Positions 35,640 to 40,583 of a stretch of DNA of 40,583 bases are shown here, in pieces. The stretch is from Calocera cornea HHB12733 (taxonomy: Eukaryota; Basidiomycota; Dacrymycetes; Dacrymycetales; Dacrymycetaceae). The position numbers were made by a program, and so were the translations under genes. The notes beneath the pieces are model-generated. The model had not been told where the DNA came from. It saw nothing but the letters and a program-made list of their open reading frames with translations, and made no database searches. Numbering within the stretch: the stretch's first letter is position 1; each line of letters starts with the position of its first letter. The stretch is from the NCBI GenBank assembly GCA_001632435.1, contig KV423965.1:43952-84534 (forward strand). The letters run 5' to 3'.

Positions 35640-35992
35640 ACATGCGGAACTGGAAAGCCGAGAGACAATCTGAGTAGTCACTCATTGATAGCAGCGATCG
35701 TAGCGAAGTCGGCGGAGGCGAAGAGGACACGACATTTATGGAAGCCTCCTACGGACAGCTGTTTAGGGGTCCATGACCGCGGCGTTAAGAGCCGGGAGAG
35801 ACTATTTGCCTCCGCGGGAGCACTTCGGGGCGTGAGACCCCAGTATAGGGTGACCAGAGGGGTGTAAGGGGCGGAAGGAGCCGAAATTTGCCTCCGCTCA
35901 CCTATTTTCGAGGCGCGCTTCCCGCGCGCCAGTGAATGTCATTTCGTGGCTGTGCAGGAAGCTTCTAAGGAGACCATCCAGGGTTCCCGACA

Positions 35993-36022
35993 CGGAATCC
36001 GGAAATCGAATTCCGGATTCCG
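35993..36022. repeat. 12-bp perfect inverted repeat (CGGAATCCGGAA)
   Basis: The arms CGGAATCCGGAA and TTCCGGATTCCG are separated by six bases, and a further GGATTCCGG unit follows immediately on the right. The repeat lies between the left-end motifs of the putative element. Confidence 0.8.
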
Positions 36023-36367
36023 GATTCCGGCCGGGGCTGTGCTAATTTGCTCCCGCTTTTTGCTTCCGGGTTAAGTATTTGCTTCCGTTTAGAATCACGT
36101 GATGTCACGTGACATCTGTTCACGCGTATGTGGTAGAATAATTAATGAAAAGCAATTAAACTCCACTTGACTATGCTTGCTCTCCAGGCAGTCAAGCTAC
36201 CACAGGGATATTCAAAGGGCTTTTCTGCACACAGCTTTTATTGCAAATTACTAACTATGTAGGAGCCTCTTTCCGTACTATGCGTTACCTAAGTAGCTAG
36301 TTTTTTTTTGGGGGGGTTTTCGGGGTTATCAACGACAGAACAATAGAAGTAATTTGAAAGAAATCTT

Positions 36368-39173
36368 CTACACATCACCAGGGACAGAAAGCCATTTGGG
36401 GTCAACTGGGCGCAGGGGGGGACAAATGTCATACGGGCCGCTTGCAGGAATGTTGAGGCCAATCTTGAGGATCCGGTAGTTGGCATCCACGGGATTGGGG
36501 TGCAACTCATACACCGAGTTCTCGCCATCCGTAAACCTGAAGACCGCCCTTCCCTTGCACTTGTGGCGGCAGGTAAAGTGCCAAGCGCCCTCCAGTGTCT
36601 TCTTCTTGTACTGCATCAGCATTCCACACTTCGGGCAGTTCAGGTCGTTCTCGTTGCCGGTCAAGTTCTTCGACGGGGCACCCCATGTGTACCGGAACCC
36701 AGCCCCGCGTGCACCAAAAACAAAGATGTCGAGACCAAAAGTGGGCGTTGACACCTCATTGGTATACCCCTTCAGGACAGCTTTCTCCTGGGGCAAGTGG
36801 TCCCGATAGAATGCACGCAGGAAGGGGGCCAGCCAGATCTCTGCCACACGCTGGGAGTTGAAGACCTTCGCCGTGAAGCTGATGACCGTATTGAAACCAA
36901 CACTAGAAGTAGTCAATATAGGTACAGATACAGAATGTAAAGATACATACGTGCATGCCATAACCGAGGGCAACGCCTTCAACACCATACCACTGCACGT
37001 CAGCAGAATAAGGGTCGACTCTTTGCAGGCAGTCTTTGGGACAACTTCTCCAGCAATGGCAGTGCAAATCTGTCAGAAAGAATTAGACTACTTTCAGAGT
37101 GCTATGGATGAGTACTTACTTGAAGGGGGGTCCCATATTTGTGGTATGTATCGCCCTTATTGTACAGGAGCTTGCCGTCGTGGTCATTAGAGTGAACGTC
37201 GACGACCATGAGGAAATGAAATTTCTTCTTGTAGCTGTCAGGTAGTGTTAGTATACCAAGATAGTCCAGGAGCAAGAACACTTACTGGTAAGTCATCTTG
37301 CGCACCAGTTCGGCTATATGAACTTGGATGTTTTGGGTTCCTTTGGCCTGTACCGGGTTGCTCTGGTCCGACGACCACATTGCGCGGTCGTCCTCGAGCA
37401 CCACATCCACCCAATGGGCATGATGAGCCTATTTAGATGTCAGCAATTGTTCCCAAGCAGAGAGGGACACTTACCACTTTACGAGACCTGTACGTCTCAC
37501 CCAGATACCCCTTCACGATCCTTGAAGAGAGGTCCGACATGCTGTGCATATCTTTCTCCTGCCAGTGCACCATCACGACGATGATCGGTTCAGCATGGAC
37601 TGGACCTTGAGACCATTGGGTGAGGTTCCCAAGATAATTGTACTATTAAAAATCAGTGCAATGCCTTCTTCATGTCAGGAACTACTCACGGGCGGCTTCG
37701 ACATCTTGTCATCCTTACAGCATTTGATGCATTTGATGCCCTCTGGAGTATCCGCAGTTGCCCTCGTGACATCAGCACATCCACGTCCACCTGCAGTCGT
37801 GATGCAAAAGGCGCAGCCACAGGTGTTGCAGTCAGCCAGAGCGCTGGACTCAAAGCTACTACGGCAGACAGAACAATGCTACATTGAAGTTAGCATCTAC
37901 CAAGAGCAATGTGTGAGAAGACTTACTGTCAGCTTCCTGTACCGCGCATGAGGGGCTCCCAGCGCCGCCATTAAGTTGCAGGCAGTTTCAGCCTTTGTGG
38001 TCCCCTTGGACACCCCATTCCCAACCTTCCCATCCACCCAGAGATAGTCCCTGTCCATCTGCATGACACGCTTGGCTTGCTCCGGGCGATCTCTGGGGGC
38101 CACCTCCCTGTTTCTCTGCCAATACTTGTAGATGAGGGCAGGAGCACTTCCCCTAATGAAGAGTAAGTGAAGAACATGAATTTATTTCTGCAAACGCTTA
38201 CTCCATGGATTCGTGCGTCTGCACCCAATAACGCCACAGACCAGAAGCCGATTCAGGAGAGCCCGCCTCCCAAGCCTTAATCCAGACGTCCCGCTCGTTG
38301 TCCTCCCGGTACTCGTCCTCATCCTCAGGAATAGCCGCGTTGCCGTCGTCGTCTCCCCAGACAACGGTGTAGCAAAGCTCTTGAGACTAAAAAGAAAAAT
38401 CTATCAGACACTATAGAATGAAGAAAGGAAAACACATACATTAGGAGTGGCACCAGGGCGCCAGAAGTGGCCGGTGATATCGACCACCTCGTACTCTTCC
38501 TCGTCTTCCGCATAGTACTCCTCCCATTCAGGGTTCTGACTGACGTTCCCACGACGAGCATGACAGAATATGTCAAAGAACTTCTTCAGAATGTGCCTGG
38601 AGTAACCAGGTTGACGGCAACTGAGAGTCTTTAGCCTAGTAAGCAGCAAGTGTGGTAAGAAGACTTACGCTTCTGCCCAACCATACTCGCGGATGTGGCG
38701 ATCGTGGCACATGAACTGGTAAAGGCAGTTCTCCTTTTCCCATGTCTGTTCAAATATCAGTAATGAAAAGTAACATTGAAAAAGGGAATACTTACCCCAA
38801 TTGGGGGAATCTCGTCGGGGTCTTCTGCGTTGAAGCGAAGGTCGACAAGGACAGGGTTCTTGAGACGACCCTCGCGCCGTTCCAAGTAGAGCTGCCAGTA
38901 GCCGAGGTTGACATCGTTGTCATTGTGCTCCCAGATAAACCAACAGACAGCAGAAATGGGGGGTGAATCCTCCCTATCGGTGTACCGGGGCACACCATAC
39001 TCCTTCCAGACCCTGGTCACGTCTGCCTTCTTGGTGTACTCCTCCGGGGTTGAGATATCGTCCGACTTGGACAGATCCCTCGGGGGGAGGGGGATGGCAG
39101 TATTGTCGGCCGCACGTCCCCTGAGGCCTCGAGTGCCGTGCTGACCACGTTGACCACGAGTTCTGGGAGGCAT
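36368..39173 (-). CDS. Zinc-finger protein with possible caspase-like core, element-borne
   Basis: Predicted 776-aa protein of unknown function. Complement exons: 39173-38796, 38745-38669, 38635-38440, 38386-38202, 38152-37927, 37878-37690, 37642-37475, 37428-37286, 37234-37120, 37069-36951, 36902-36368; 2331 nt, in frame. The Arg/Gly-rich start (MPPRTRGQRGQHGTRGLRG) is followed by a W/Y-rich N-terminal half. A PHD/RING-like Cys cluster spans 355-408 (Cys356, 359, 371, 374, 376, 379, 388, 404, 407, 408). Then come two hydrophobic strands ending in His and Cys: FLMVVDVHSN (His535) and TLILLTCSG (Cys584), an arrangement seen in clan CD (caspase/CHAT) peptidases. A C-terminal zinc ribbon (CPKCGM...FTCRHKC) covers about 687-713. 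I recall similar multicopy genes in Agaricomycetes but cannot name the family. It may be a transposon-associated or chromatin protein. The whole frame is intact, so the copy may be active. Confidence 0.75.
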
Positions 39174-39569
39174 ATTTGAGTTCAGAAGAGTACAGTGAAA
39201 GTCGATTGTTGAAGTCTTGATAATGGTCGTTTGCTGGCAAAGGTATTGCTGCCTCGAGGCACGGACCAGGGGCTATGTGAAACGGAAGCAGATCCTCGTC
39301 ACGGAAGCAGATGATCCAATGAACGGAAGTAAATCTTGCACTCGGATGCAACTTACCTTTTGAGCGGAAGCATATTTTGGGTGGCGCGGCAGTAAACATT
39401 TTGGTGGGCGGAAGCAGATTGGTAATCTAGCGGAAGCAGAATTGAGTGGACGGAAGTAAATATCACGTGCACGGAAGCAACTAGTCACGTGCACGGAAGC
39501 AAAATTGCTCCCTGAACGCGGCGCGCGACGCGCGCCGGAAGCAAACAACTCTCTCTCTCTGTCCCACCA

Positions 39570-39601
39570 CCATCCCTGTTGCGAGCGCGCAACAGGGATG
39601 G
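39570..39601 (+). repeat. Perfect 14-bp stem-loop
   Basis: The arms CCATCCCTGTTGCG and CGCAACAGGGATGG are separated by AGCG, a perfect hairpin. It lies just outside the right edge of the putative element. An intron-like GTAAGT begins at 39603, right after the 3' arm. Confidence 0.9.
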
Positions 39602-39602
39602 A

Positions 39603-39634
39603 GTAAGTTTCTTTTTACTGATTAATTTTTTTAG
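39603..39634 (+). other. Intron-like segment upstream of the hairpin array
   Basis: It begins GTAAGT, contains TTTACTGATTAAT as a plausible branch region, and ends TTTTTTTAG. At 32 nt it is shorter than the other introns here (42 nt and longer). If genuine, it shows plus-strand transcription through 39.6 kb, with the hairpin array in the downstream exon. Confidence 0.35.
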
Positions 39635-39651
39635 ATATTTGGACACTTCGG

Positions 39652-40100
39652 GCCCCTCCTCAGGGCGAGCATGGCTTGTCCATCTCGTCTGCGAGGTGGG
39701 GCTGGAGGATGTGGAAGAGCGCATGGCTTGTCCGTCGCTCTTCCACTCCTCCTACTGTATGGGACTCGGTGGGACGCGCATGGCTTGTCCGTCGCGTCCC
39801 TTTCTGGCATCGTATATGCGTGCAGGGCTTGTCCCTTGTGCATATATGTGCTTCTAGCAGCAACAATGGGCAGTGGGGGGATGGTGCGGTGGCAAGACAT
39901 GCATGGCGTGTCCGTCATGTCTTCGCCAACCACCGCATGAATGGGGAGCGCAGGGCTTGTCCCTTGCTCCTCTGCAATGCATCCCCTCGCCCATCTCAGT
40001 ACCCCCGCCGCTCCTGCACATGGCGTGTCCGTTGCAGGTAGTGAGTGGGGGTTTGGACCACGACTTGGTGCAGGGTGTGTCCCTCGTCAAGTGGTGGTCT
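39652..40100 (+). ncRNA. Array of eight conserved bulged-C stem-loops (putative structured RNA)
   Basis: Eight hairpins share a 14-nt apical sequence, consensus CA(T/G)GG(C/T)(T/G)TGTCC(G/A/C)T, at 39670, 39722, 39779, 39823, 39902, 39951, 40019 and 40071. Outer stems differ in sequence but are self-complementary. Examples: GTGGAAGAGCG at 39711-39721 (11 bp, extended by GGAGGA/TCCTCC past one bulged T); GGGACGCG at 39771-39778; 12 pairs with wobbles at 39811-39848; GACATG with extension near 39891-39927; 15 pairs with one mismatch at 40055-40100. In each, the apical part folds as a bulged C, a 4-bp stem A-N-G-G/C-C-N'-T and a 5-nt loop CTTGT, CGTGT or TGTGT. Wobbles are G-T in the plus sense, so the RNA would be the plus strand. 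No coding frame explains the pattern. I do not know this family. Confidence 0.75.
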
Positions 40101-40159
40101 TACTGAGATCGCGCCCTTCCCGAGCCCTGGCCAGCAGTGGCGTCTGAGGGCACCAGGAC

Positions 40160-40194
40160 GGCCAGGAGGGGCATTGAGCTAGTCCCTCCTGGCC
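40160..40194 (+). repeat. Ninth hairpin with a different loop
   Basis: The arms GGCCAGGAGGG and CCCTCCTGGCC (11 bp, perfect) enclose a 13-nt loop that lacks the GGCTTGTCC core of the eight hairpins before it. It lies about 60 nt after the array and may be a diverged member or a terminal structure. Confidence 0.8.
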
Positions 40195-40483
40195 TTGTAG
40201 ATACATTTTAGTTACAATGAAAAATGGGACGCGGCCCCCTCCGTGCCAAAAAAATAATAATAAAATACATTTTGATTTATTTTGATCAGGTGACGTCGTC
40301 GTCACCCAGAGAGAATCCCAAGTATTGCCTGTTTAGGCAATTTTGATTGATCGGTCCCGACATTGAGGAACCGGATCTCATCAATCGAGTTTTTTGGAAA
40401 ATTAAAGTAATCCTCGTCGCCGGTCTGCACCTAACTTCACTCTTTCACCTCCAGTTCTATTTCCCTCATCTTCCAACCCTACA
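40195..40483. promoter_or_regulatory. Region upstream of the terminal partial gene
   Basis: An AT-rich stretch (40240-40285) with A-runs is followed by GTGACGTCGTCGTCAC at 40291-40306, a CRE/ATF-like TGACGTCG with an inverted partner. A pyrimidine-rich segment (TTTCACCTCCAG) precedes the ATG at 40484. This could be a promoter or an intron plus leader. Confidence 0.4.
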
Positions 40484-40583
40484 ATGGCACCTCAGCACAT
40501 TGACTTTGACTTTGTCCTTGGCTTATACCCAGCAAATGCCCGACCTGCTCTTCAGCCCGCCCAGTGTGGCGTGTGTGAGAAGG
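40484..40583 (+). CDS. 5' end of an unidentified gene (truncated by window)
   Basis: An ATG in a good context (CTACAATGGCA) opens a frame that stays open for the last 33 codons. It begins MAPQHIDFDFVLGLYPANA and reaches CGVCEK, so a Cys-x2-Cys zinc-binding motif may follow. It is too short to identify. Its position next to the hairpin array and the putative element makes a mobile-element protein possible, but that is a guess. Confidence 0.5.
   Translation, partial: MAPQHIDFDFVLGLYPANARPALQPAQCGVCEK

Follow-up and report, generated by a model that had tools for sequence, protein, structure and literature searches.

A tandem array of eight hairpins with a near-constant apex in a KDZ-superfamily DNA transposon of Calocera cornea: a candidate structured RNA

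The usual picture of a eukaryotic cut-and-paste DNA transposon is of protein genes flanked by inverted ends. In the KDZ superfamily (Kyakuja, Dileera, Zisupton) the Zisupton elements have inverted ends and 8-bp target duplications, one Dileera element shares the 8-bp target duplication, and two Laccaria Kyakuja elements display a 7-bp duplication and CA..TG ends with no inverted ends (PMC12730594). The parts of that article consulted mention no hairpin array or RNA for such elements, and the word 'hairpin' does not occur in it. Literature titles and the opening lines of abstracts likewise gave no description of such an array in DNA transposons, KDZ or other.

The closest parallels come from RNAs. 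The roX RNAs of Drosophila carry repeated stem-loops with a common short motif on one noncoding RNA and, in the part of the literature consulted, their activity is described as rising with the number of stem-loops (PMC4719309). They are host chromosome RNAs from another kingdom, with no transposon involved. The bacterial CsrB and RsmZ RNAs present many hairpins with one recognition motif, a GGA in the loop, and sequester a protein (PMC5027483, in part). In the dispersed packaging signals of RNA viruses and the coat-protein operators of phages, according to the accounts drawn on here, a single protein recognises a loop motif that several stem-loops share. One screen for RNA structures in fungi, as far as the section consulted describes it, dealt with Ascomycota only and avoided transposons, so RNAs like the one considered below would have been missed there (PMC8216456).

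The window, that is the whole stretch of DNA analysed, comprises 40,583 nucleotides of contig KV423965.1 of Calocera cornea HHB12733. A sequence-only reading had placed a tandem array of eight hairpins at 39652..40100, with a spacing of 45-80 nt. Eight hairpins are indeed present on the plus strand at 39663-40092 (Table 1). Their regular tandem order stands, with neighbours 44-79 nt apart when measured, and all eight fall inside the interval proposed, but the structured region extends beyond it to about 40195.

Table 1. Positions of the features discussed (window coordinates unless another locus is named)
Feature	Position	Strand	Details
Left part of KDZ transposon	35970..40583	+	Left end GAGACCATCC at 35970, from alignment with C80 and C200; continues past the window
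Left terminal inverted repeat zone	35970..36050	+	Aligned with left and reversed right ends of other copies
Two subterminal CGGAAGCA sites	36061..36087	-	36061-36068 and 36080-36087
Gene A, predicted	36435 (about)..39173	-	Many introns; transcribed away from the array; splice model, uncertain short last exon left out
Ten CGGAAGYA sites	39283..39543	+	19-22 or 41-44 bp apart
Perfect 14-bp hairpin upstream of array	39570..39601	+
Splice-like GTAAGT..CTGAT..TTTAG	39603..39634	+	32 nt; read by eye
Hairpin 1	39663..39690	+	Bulged C 39670
Hairpin 2	39711..39746	+	Bulged C 39722
Hairpin 3	39771..39800	+	Bulged C 39779
Hairpin 4	39811..39848	+	Bulged C 39823
Three-way junction with hairpins 5 and 6	39868..39992	+	Predicted fold; closing stem 39868-39883 with 39980-39992
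Hairpin 5	39894..39923	+	Bulged C 39902
Hairpin 6	39943..39972	+	Bulged C 39951
Three-way junction with hairpins 7 and 8	39993..40109	+	Predicted fold; closing stem 39993-40000 with 40102-40109
Hairpin 7	40013..40038	+	Bulged C 40019
Hairpin 8	40063..40092	+	Bulged C 40071
Long hairpin downstream of array	40160..40194	+	11 bp perfect
Polyadenylation-like signals	40196..40266	+	UGUA (40196) and A-rich AATAATAATAAAAT (40253); similar in other copies; role inferred
Gene B start	40484..40583	+	ATG 40484; splice models in C80 and C95; continues past the window
HSP70 fragment	C80: L014 4951-5063; C95: L015 2115-2205		Source: host gene L078, C18:49887-49977

Twenty-four hairpins were compared, eight each from the window's copy (C52) and from two further copies of the array in the same genome (C80 and C95); the eight of a fourth copy, C200, were left out as nearly identical to those of C95. 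All follow one plan: an arm, a bulged C, A-K-G-G, a loop of five nucleotides, C-C-N-U and the second arm. The bulged C, the 4-bp apical stem and the 5-nt loop make up the apex, and all four pairs are present in 24/24 hairpins. Pairs 1, 2 and 4 of the apical stem never vary (G-C, G-C and A-T), and pair 3 is T.G in 12 hairpins, G-C in 10 and T-A in two. The loop is CNUGU (CNTGT) in 23 hairpins and TGTGT in the remaining one; CTTGT is the loop of 15, and nine loops are not CTTG. Mean identity of the 14-nt apex among the hairpins of one array is 0.86-0.88, which bears out the near constancy noticed at the outset. The arms, said to differ entirely yet remain complementary, are complementary and nearly, not wholly, unrelated, with mean identities within an array of 0.34-0.39 against 0.27-0.29 for shuffled arms.

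The apex does not follow those sequence rules of similar systems against which it was tested. In the iron-responsive element, as in the array hairpins, just a few pairs separate a bulged C from a small loop; there the pairs above the bulge number five and the loop is CAGUGN, and here there are four pairs and a CNUGU or UGUGU loop in all 24. In phage operators, too, a base bulges out beneath a short apical stem, but the bulged base and the loop are different ones, and no capsid gene was identified at the array element. The motif of the roX RNAs is probably a different one, in part located elsewhere in the stem. The GGA of the CsrB and RsmZ loops is absent from the loops of all 24 hairpins. Scanning the whole window with 4,227 Rfam models gave no match at gathering score, the sub-threshold matches being to mir-343, mir-207, mir-4433 and mir-1976. 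Nor did the other copies give one; in C95 and C200 the only sub-threshold match is ar14 (32.3 and 30.9 bits, cut-off 58.8). The remark that no described family with this apex was known agrees with the Rfam result.

The view that no known repeat explains the array was not supported. It lies inside a DNA transposon of the KDZ superfamily, between two divergent genes. In the C80 copy Pfam finds two cysteine clusters known from KDZ transposases, CxC6 (PF18721, E 7.1e-27) and CxC5 (PF18718, E 2.7e-25), both over cut-off, together with a weak match to the KDZ transposase domain PF18758 in one exon (E 0.0013, 18.9 bits, cut-off 26.6). The C80 element has inverted ends and an 8-bp target duplication, TATTCACG, on both sides, and is 8,857 bp long (L014 769-9625). 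The outer flanks of the C95 and C200 elements differ and share no common duplication. Given the inverted ends and the 8-bp duplication of C80, the element looks like Zisupton or Dileera rather than Kyakuja. The transposase gene runs on the minus strand from the right end of the element in C80 and C95, and the CxC6 of the window's copy is located at C52:88577-88771. By sequence comparison the element belongs to a known type of transposon, and the putative array RNA is without an Rfam family and apart from the tested rules of known systems.

The array is found at four places in the genome. C80 is 84% identical to the window, C95 and C200 80%. The last two are 99.9% identical over 3,814 bp and lie at contig ends; they represent one locus or two recent copies, and their differing outer flanks favour two. 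We count three sequence-distinct arrays, C52, C80 and C95, and all keep eight hairpins. The apex pattern CANGGCNTGTCCNT occurs with no mismatch at 49 places in the 32-Mb genome: 31 are in the four arrays (seven in C52, eight in each of the others) and the other 18 are single, on 18 further contigs. Genome-wide, the exact pattern clusters only in the known arrays. Allowing one mismatch gives 733 places, against 587 for the reversed control.

The copies may have exchanged sequence, to judge from their alignments. Identity between C52 and C80 is 96.1% in the left part (2,219 bp), 90.0% in the stretch with the array (1,090 bp) and 75.4% on the right side; between C80 and C95 it is 85.1% over the 5,390 bp that begin at the array and run rightwards. 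The C80 element (L014) looks like a mosaic, with a left part like C52 (L013), a right part like C95 (L015) and an exchange within the array or close to it. Partial copies that lie at contig ends and are nearly identical to C80 (C179) and to C52 (C222) point to recent movement or unresolved assembly.

Several results bear on the base pairing itself. The plus strand of 39640-40200 folds with -311.7 kcal/mol (z -11.1), a value equalled by none of 100 shuffles. In the alignment of the 24 hairpins (23 distinct rows), 96.4% of 276 cells pair as opposed to 70.2% in shuffles. The covariation score of 0.753 compares with 0.231 for shuffles and 0.11-0.26 for slid controls, and changes on both sides affect 74 cells, where shuffles have 20.9. 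These counts are not independent, as they derive from one genome and three distinct arrays of shared ancestry, with hairpins related within and between copies. One of the five measures was unexceptional: nine pairs are changed on both sides as against 7.7, a value reached by 107 of 500 shuffles.

A second test compared the copies with one another, for which 161 predicted pairs were taken from a consensus fold of C52, C80 and C95, the same three sequences under test, so that there is a bias towards kept pairs. Of the changed pairs, 24 of 34 still pair between C52 and C80 (null mean 41%, null maximum 56%), 32 of 44 between C52 and C95 (37%, 56%) and 17 of 25 between C80 and C95 (40%, 59%), with 2,000 draws in each case. 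Double compensations number 8, 12 and 5 in the same order, against null means of 1.5, 2.5 and 0.7; changed pairs that are now broken number 10, 12 and 8. Between C52 and C95 the array stretch (79.3% of 632 positions identical) is better conserved than the transposase side (75.7% of 2,164), the gene B piece (74.1% of 174) and the gene A side (69.1% of 301). As judged from these comparisons, selection holds both the apex and the base pairing, as had been proposed, and the further genomic copies with compensated stems that such a proposal calls for are there in C80 and C95.

On which strand does this selection act? An A.C pair on one strand is a G.U pair on the other. Over the first 10 arm pairs of the 24 hairpins the plus strand shows 30 G.U and 3 A.C, a ratio of about 10:1, and for the inner eight pairs the ratio is 9:1, 7:1 and 9:0 in the individual copies. 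Pair 3 of the apex is itself a wobble in half of the hairpins. The excess of G.U marks the plus strand as the one that folds, and argues for selection mainly on plus-strand RNA. The sequence-only reading had allowed for RNA or single-stranded DNA; RNA of the plus strand is favoured, and single-stranded DNA of the same strand is a less favoured form.

The order of the hairpins carries a further pattern. In C95 apical pair 3 alternates between T.G (type A) and G-C (type B) four times over. In C52 and C80 hairpin 1 has T-A and hairpin 2 is of type A, and the remaining hairpins agree with the C95 order. Spacing within the A-B pairs is 52, 44, 49 and 52, identical in all three copies, and between pairs it is 57-58, 75-79 and 68. 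The alternating orders are two of the 70 possible arrangements of four and four (approximately 0.03), and the pattern was noticed after the fact; alternation alone is modest evidence for a repeat unit. Combined with the constant within-pair spacing, the alternation in C95 suggests four copies of an old two-hairpin unit, the stems of which diverged afterwards. To exclude duplication on the ground that it would have conserved the stems, as had been argued earlier, went too far.

Two predicted genes flank the array. Neither model has a Pfam match at E <= 10, which led us to drop the idea that gene B encodes a zinc-finger protein, and the gene B protein (C95 model) has no homolog at E <= 0.001 among 7,993 scored candidates. 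A predicted structure for part of gene A, at a mean pLDDT of 38, was unusable. The hairpins themselves occupy different reading frames, which rules out a coding repeat and agrees with the statement that no ORF accounts for them. CGGAAGYA sites, with a phase of about 21 or 42 bp, occur next to the array and again near the left end (36061-36087), and are perhaps protein-binding DNA sites. The splice-like signals just upstream of the array have counterparts in the other copies, though the intervening sequence differs, and may delimit an ultra-short intron.

Starting from what is observed, namely the element, eight hairpins in three diverged copies, their covariation and the plus-strand G.U bias, we consider that the array is probably, though far from certainly, the core of a structured RNA of the KDZ transposon, made from the plus strand and displaying eight protein-binding sites. 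A discrete noncoding RNA of roughly 0.6-0.7 kb would be transcribed from the plus strand between the divergent genes A and B. Each apex, with its bulged C, 4-bp stem and CNUGU loop, would form one binding site for one protein, with the stems serving only to hold the sites up and apart, and the sites may function as A-B pairs. An RNA with eight such sites could titrate or gather the bound protein, most likely the element's own regulator, a product of gene A or gene B as guessed from position, which perhaps acts next to the phased CGGAAGYA sites. Such an RNA would work like the roX or CsrB RNAs and be unrelated to them. The good folding of the minus strand (z -9.1) is an observation that counts against this reading.

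A more elaborate version is possible but improbable as a whole. It supposes a roX-like RNA in a DNA transposon, built of four A-B units of which at least two would be Y-shaped, to which eight copies of a protein encoded by the element would bind, perhaps in A-B pairs. The same protein would also read the CGGAAGYA sites, so that RNA and DNA sites would act jointly in concentrating it at the element, where it would control transposition or keep host silencing away. The hairpins would have arisen by duplication and template switching, the latter still visible in the two copies that bear a fragment of HSP70 (see below).

Should the array prove to be a structured RNA with eight equal, selected sites, it would mean that a DNA transposon uses an RNA part of its own. 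The same apex on eight stems in three diverged copies amounts to a natural experiment, from which the recognition rule can be read.

The array might instead be part of the 5' leader, or of a 5' intron, of the gene B mRNA, with the hairpins controlling splicing, export or translation in cis. It lies on the same strand as gene B, the ATG of which is approximately 390 nt downstream of hairpin 8; the consensus fold predicts further small hairpins between array and gene B, with some pairs compensated; and the splice-like donor stands just ahead of the array. However, the three copies have 19, 23 and 24 ATGs ahead of that of gene B (17, 17 and 18 within the array part), and unless these were removed by splicing, scanning would be blocked. 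All three copies also have polyadenylation-like motifs in the stretch that separates the array from gene B. Since so many ATGs fall in the array part, with polyadenylation-like motifs behind it, a discrete RNA appears favoured and we judge the leader rather unlikely.

The origin of the stems raises another alternative, that template switching at replication builds and repairs them; the array would then have arisen by mutation and have no function as RNA, and the apex would be just the loop at which switching occurs. Directly behind the array in C80 and C95, and absent from C52, is a sense fragment of the host HSP70 gene (PF00012, E 3e-49), with 77/91 bases identical to that gene in C95 and 84/114, gaps included, in C80. 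The host locus, at C18:49886, had come up as another structured copy of the array and was rejected as such, being the HSP70 gene. As part of the transposon this fragment folds into a hairpin of a form that the corresponding stretch of the host gene lacks; in C80 an extra 10-nt insertion makes another hairpin perfect. These HSP70-derived hairpins are what template switching would leave, and a captured host fragment turned into hairpins beside the array makes the origin of RNA hairpins testable.

Template switching can, according to the part of the source drawn on, create, maintain and repair hairpin stems, and CUUG loops are enriched among hairpins with instantaneous compensations (PMC8794818), which fits the CTTGT loops here. 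It yields Watson-Crick stems with no strand preference, however, whereas G.U exceeds A.C by 30:3 and pair 3 is so often T.G; nor would it keep the bulged C, the apex and the within-pair spacing in 24/24 hairpins, and the loops that are not CTTG do not fit. Mutation may supply the stems, but it leaves the constant apex, the bulged C and the G.U excess unexplained, which we attribute to selection. As a full account, template switching strikes us as quite improbable.

It is very doubtful that the hairpins act as DNA, that is as cruciforms or single-stranded hairpins that the transposase reads or that are recognised while the element replicates. Their place in a DNA transposon, beside phased DNA repeats, and the folding of the minus strand would suit such a role. 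To our knowledge, no single-stranded stage of KDZ elements has been described, and the G.U excess is specific to one strand, which a double-stranded or two-strand function would not favour. The least probable reading is that the hairpins are clustered precursors of microRNA-like or small interfering RNAs, as their tandem order, the sub-threshold Rfam microRNA matches at hairpin 2 and the host HSP70 fragment behind two of the arrays might suggest. The conserved part is the apex and not an arm, and in the window the inner stems measure 6-12 bp. None of the Rfam matches exceeds 19 bits, where the cut-offs are 70 or higher, and DNA searches with the array gave no host match to the stems, although very short matches would escape these.

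Finally we turn to possible relatives of the array. The CxC6 protein has no relative in the viral contigs searched. The apex pattern has one match there, at L077 299-338 on the minus strand, which the covariance model R1 scores at 25.3 bits (E 8.3e-6 in a 6.6-kb record); it is a single hairpin, antisense in a 195-codon open frame, and we took it for chance. Over 36 further loci R1 recovered the C80 array again (L017, eight matches) and gave eight weak matches, the best with 19 bits (E 0.0099), six in loci chosen for their apex and two in CxC6 genes.

The genome holds 24 CxC6 matches, of which 23 are over cut-off. Beside six other KDZ loci, sampled over 6 kb each and in one case 1.4 kb, R1 found no match; the lack of such an array in these partly sampled loci is an observation against the reading of the array as a structured RNA of the transposon. 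A fold scan revealed strong structure in two of the six stretches, L071 (z -7.0) and L076 (z -6.6). At L076 490-690 (C5) there is a self-complementary tandem repeat with a 41-nt period (z -8.0) and at L071 840-1035 (C17) one with a 16-nt period (z -5.7). In both, each repeat unit takes in the stem as well as the loop, which is what simple duplication predicts, and we do not regard them as arrays of the same kind. They provide a useful contrast, and hairpin zones of other make may be common in the KDZ superfamily.
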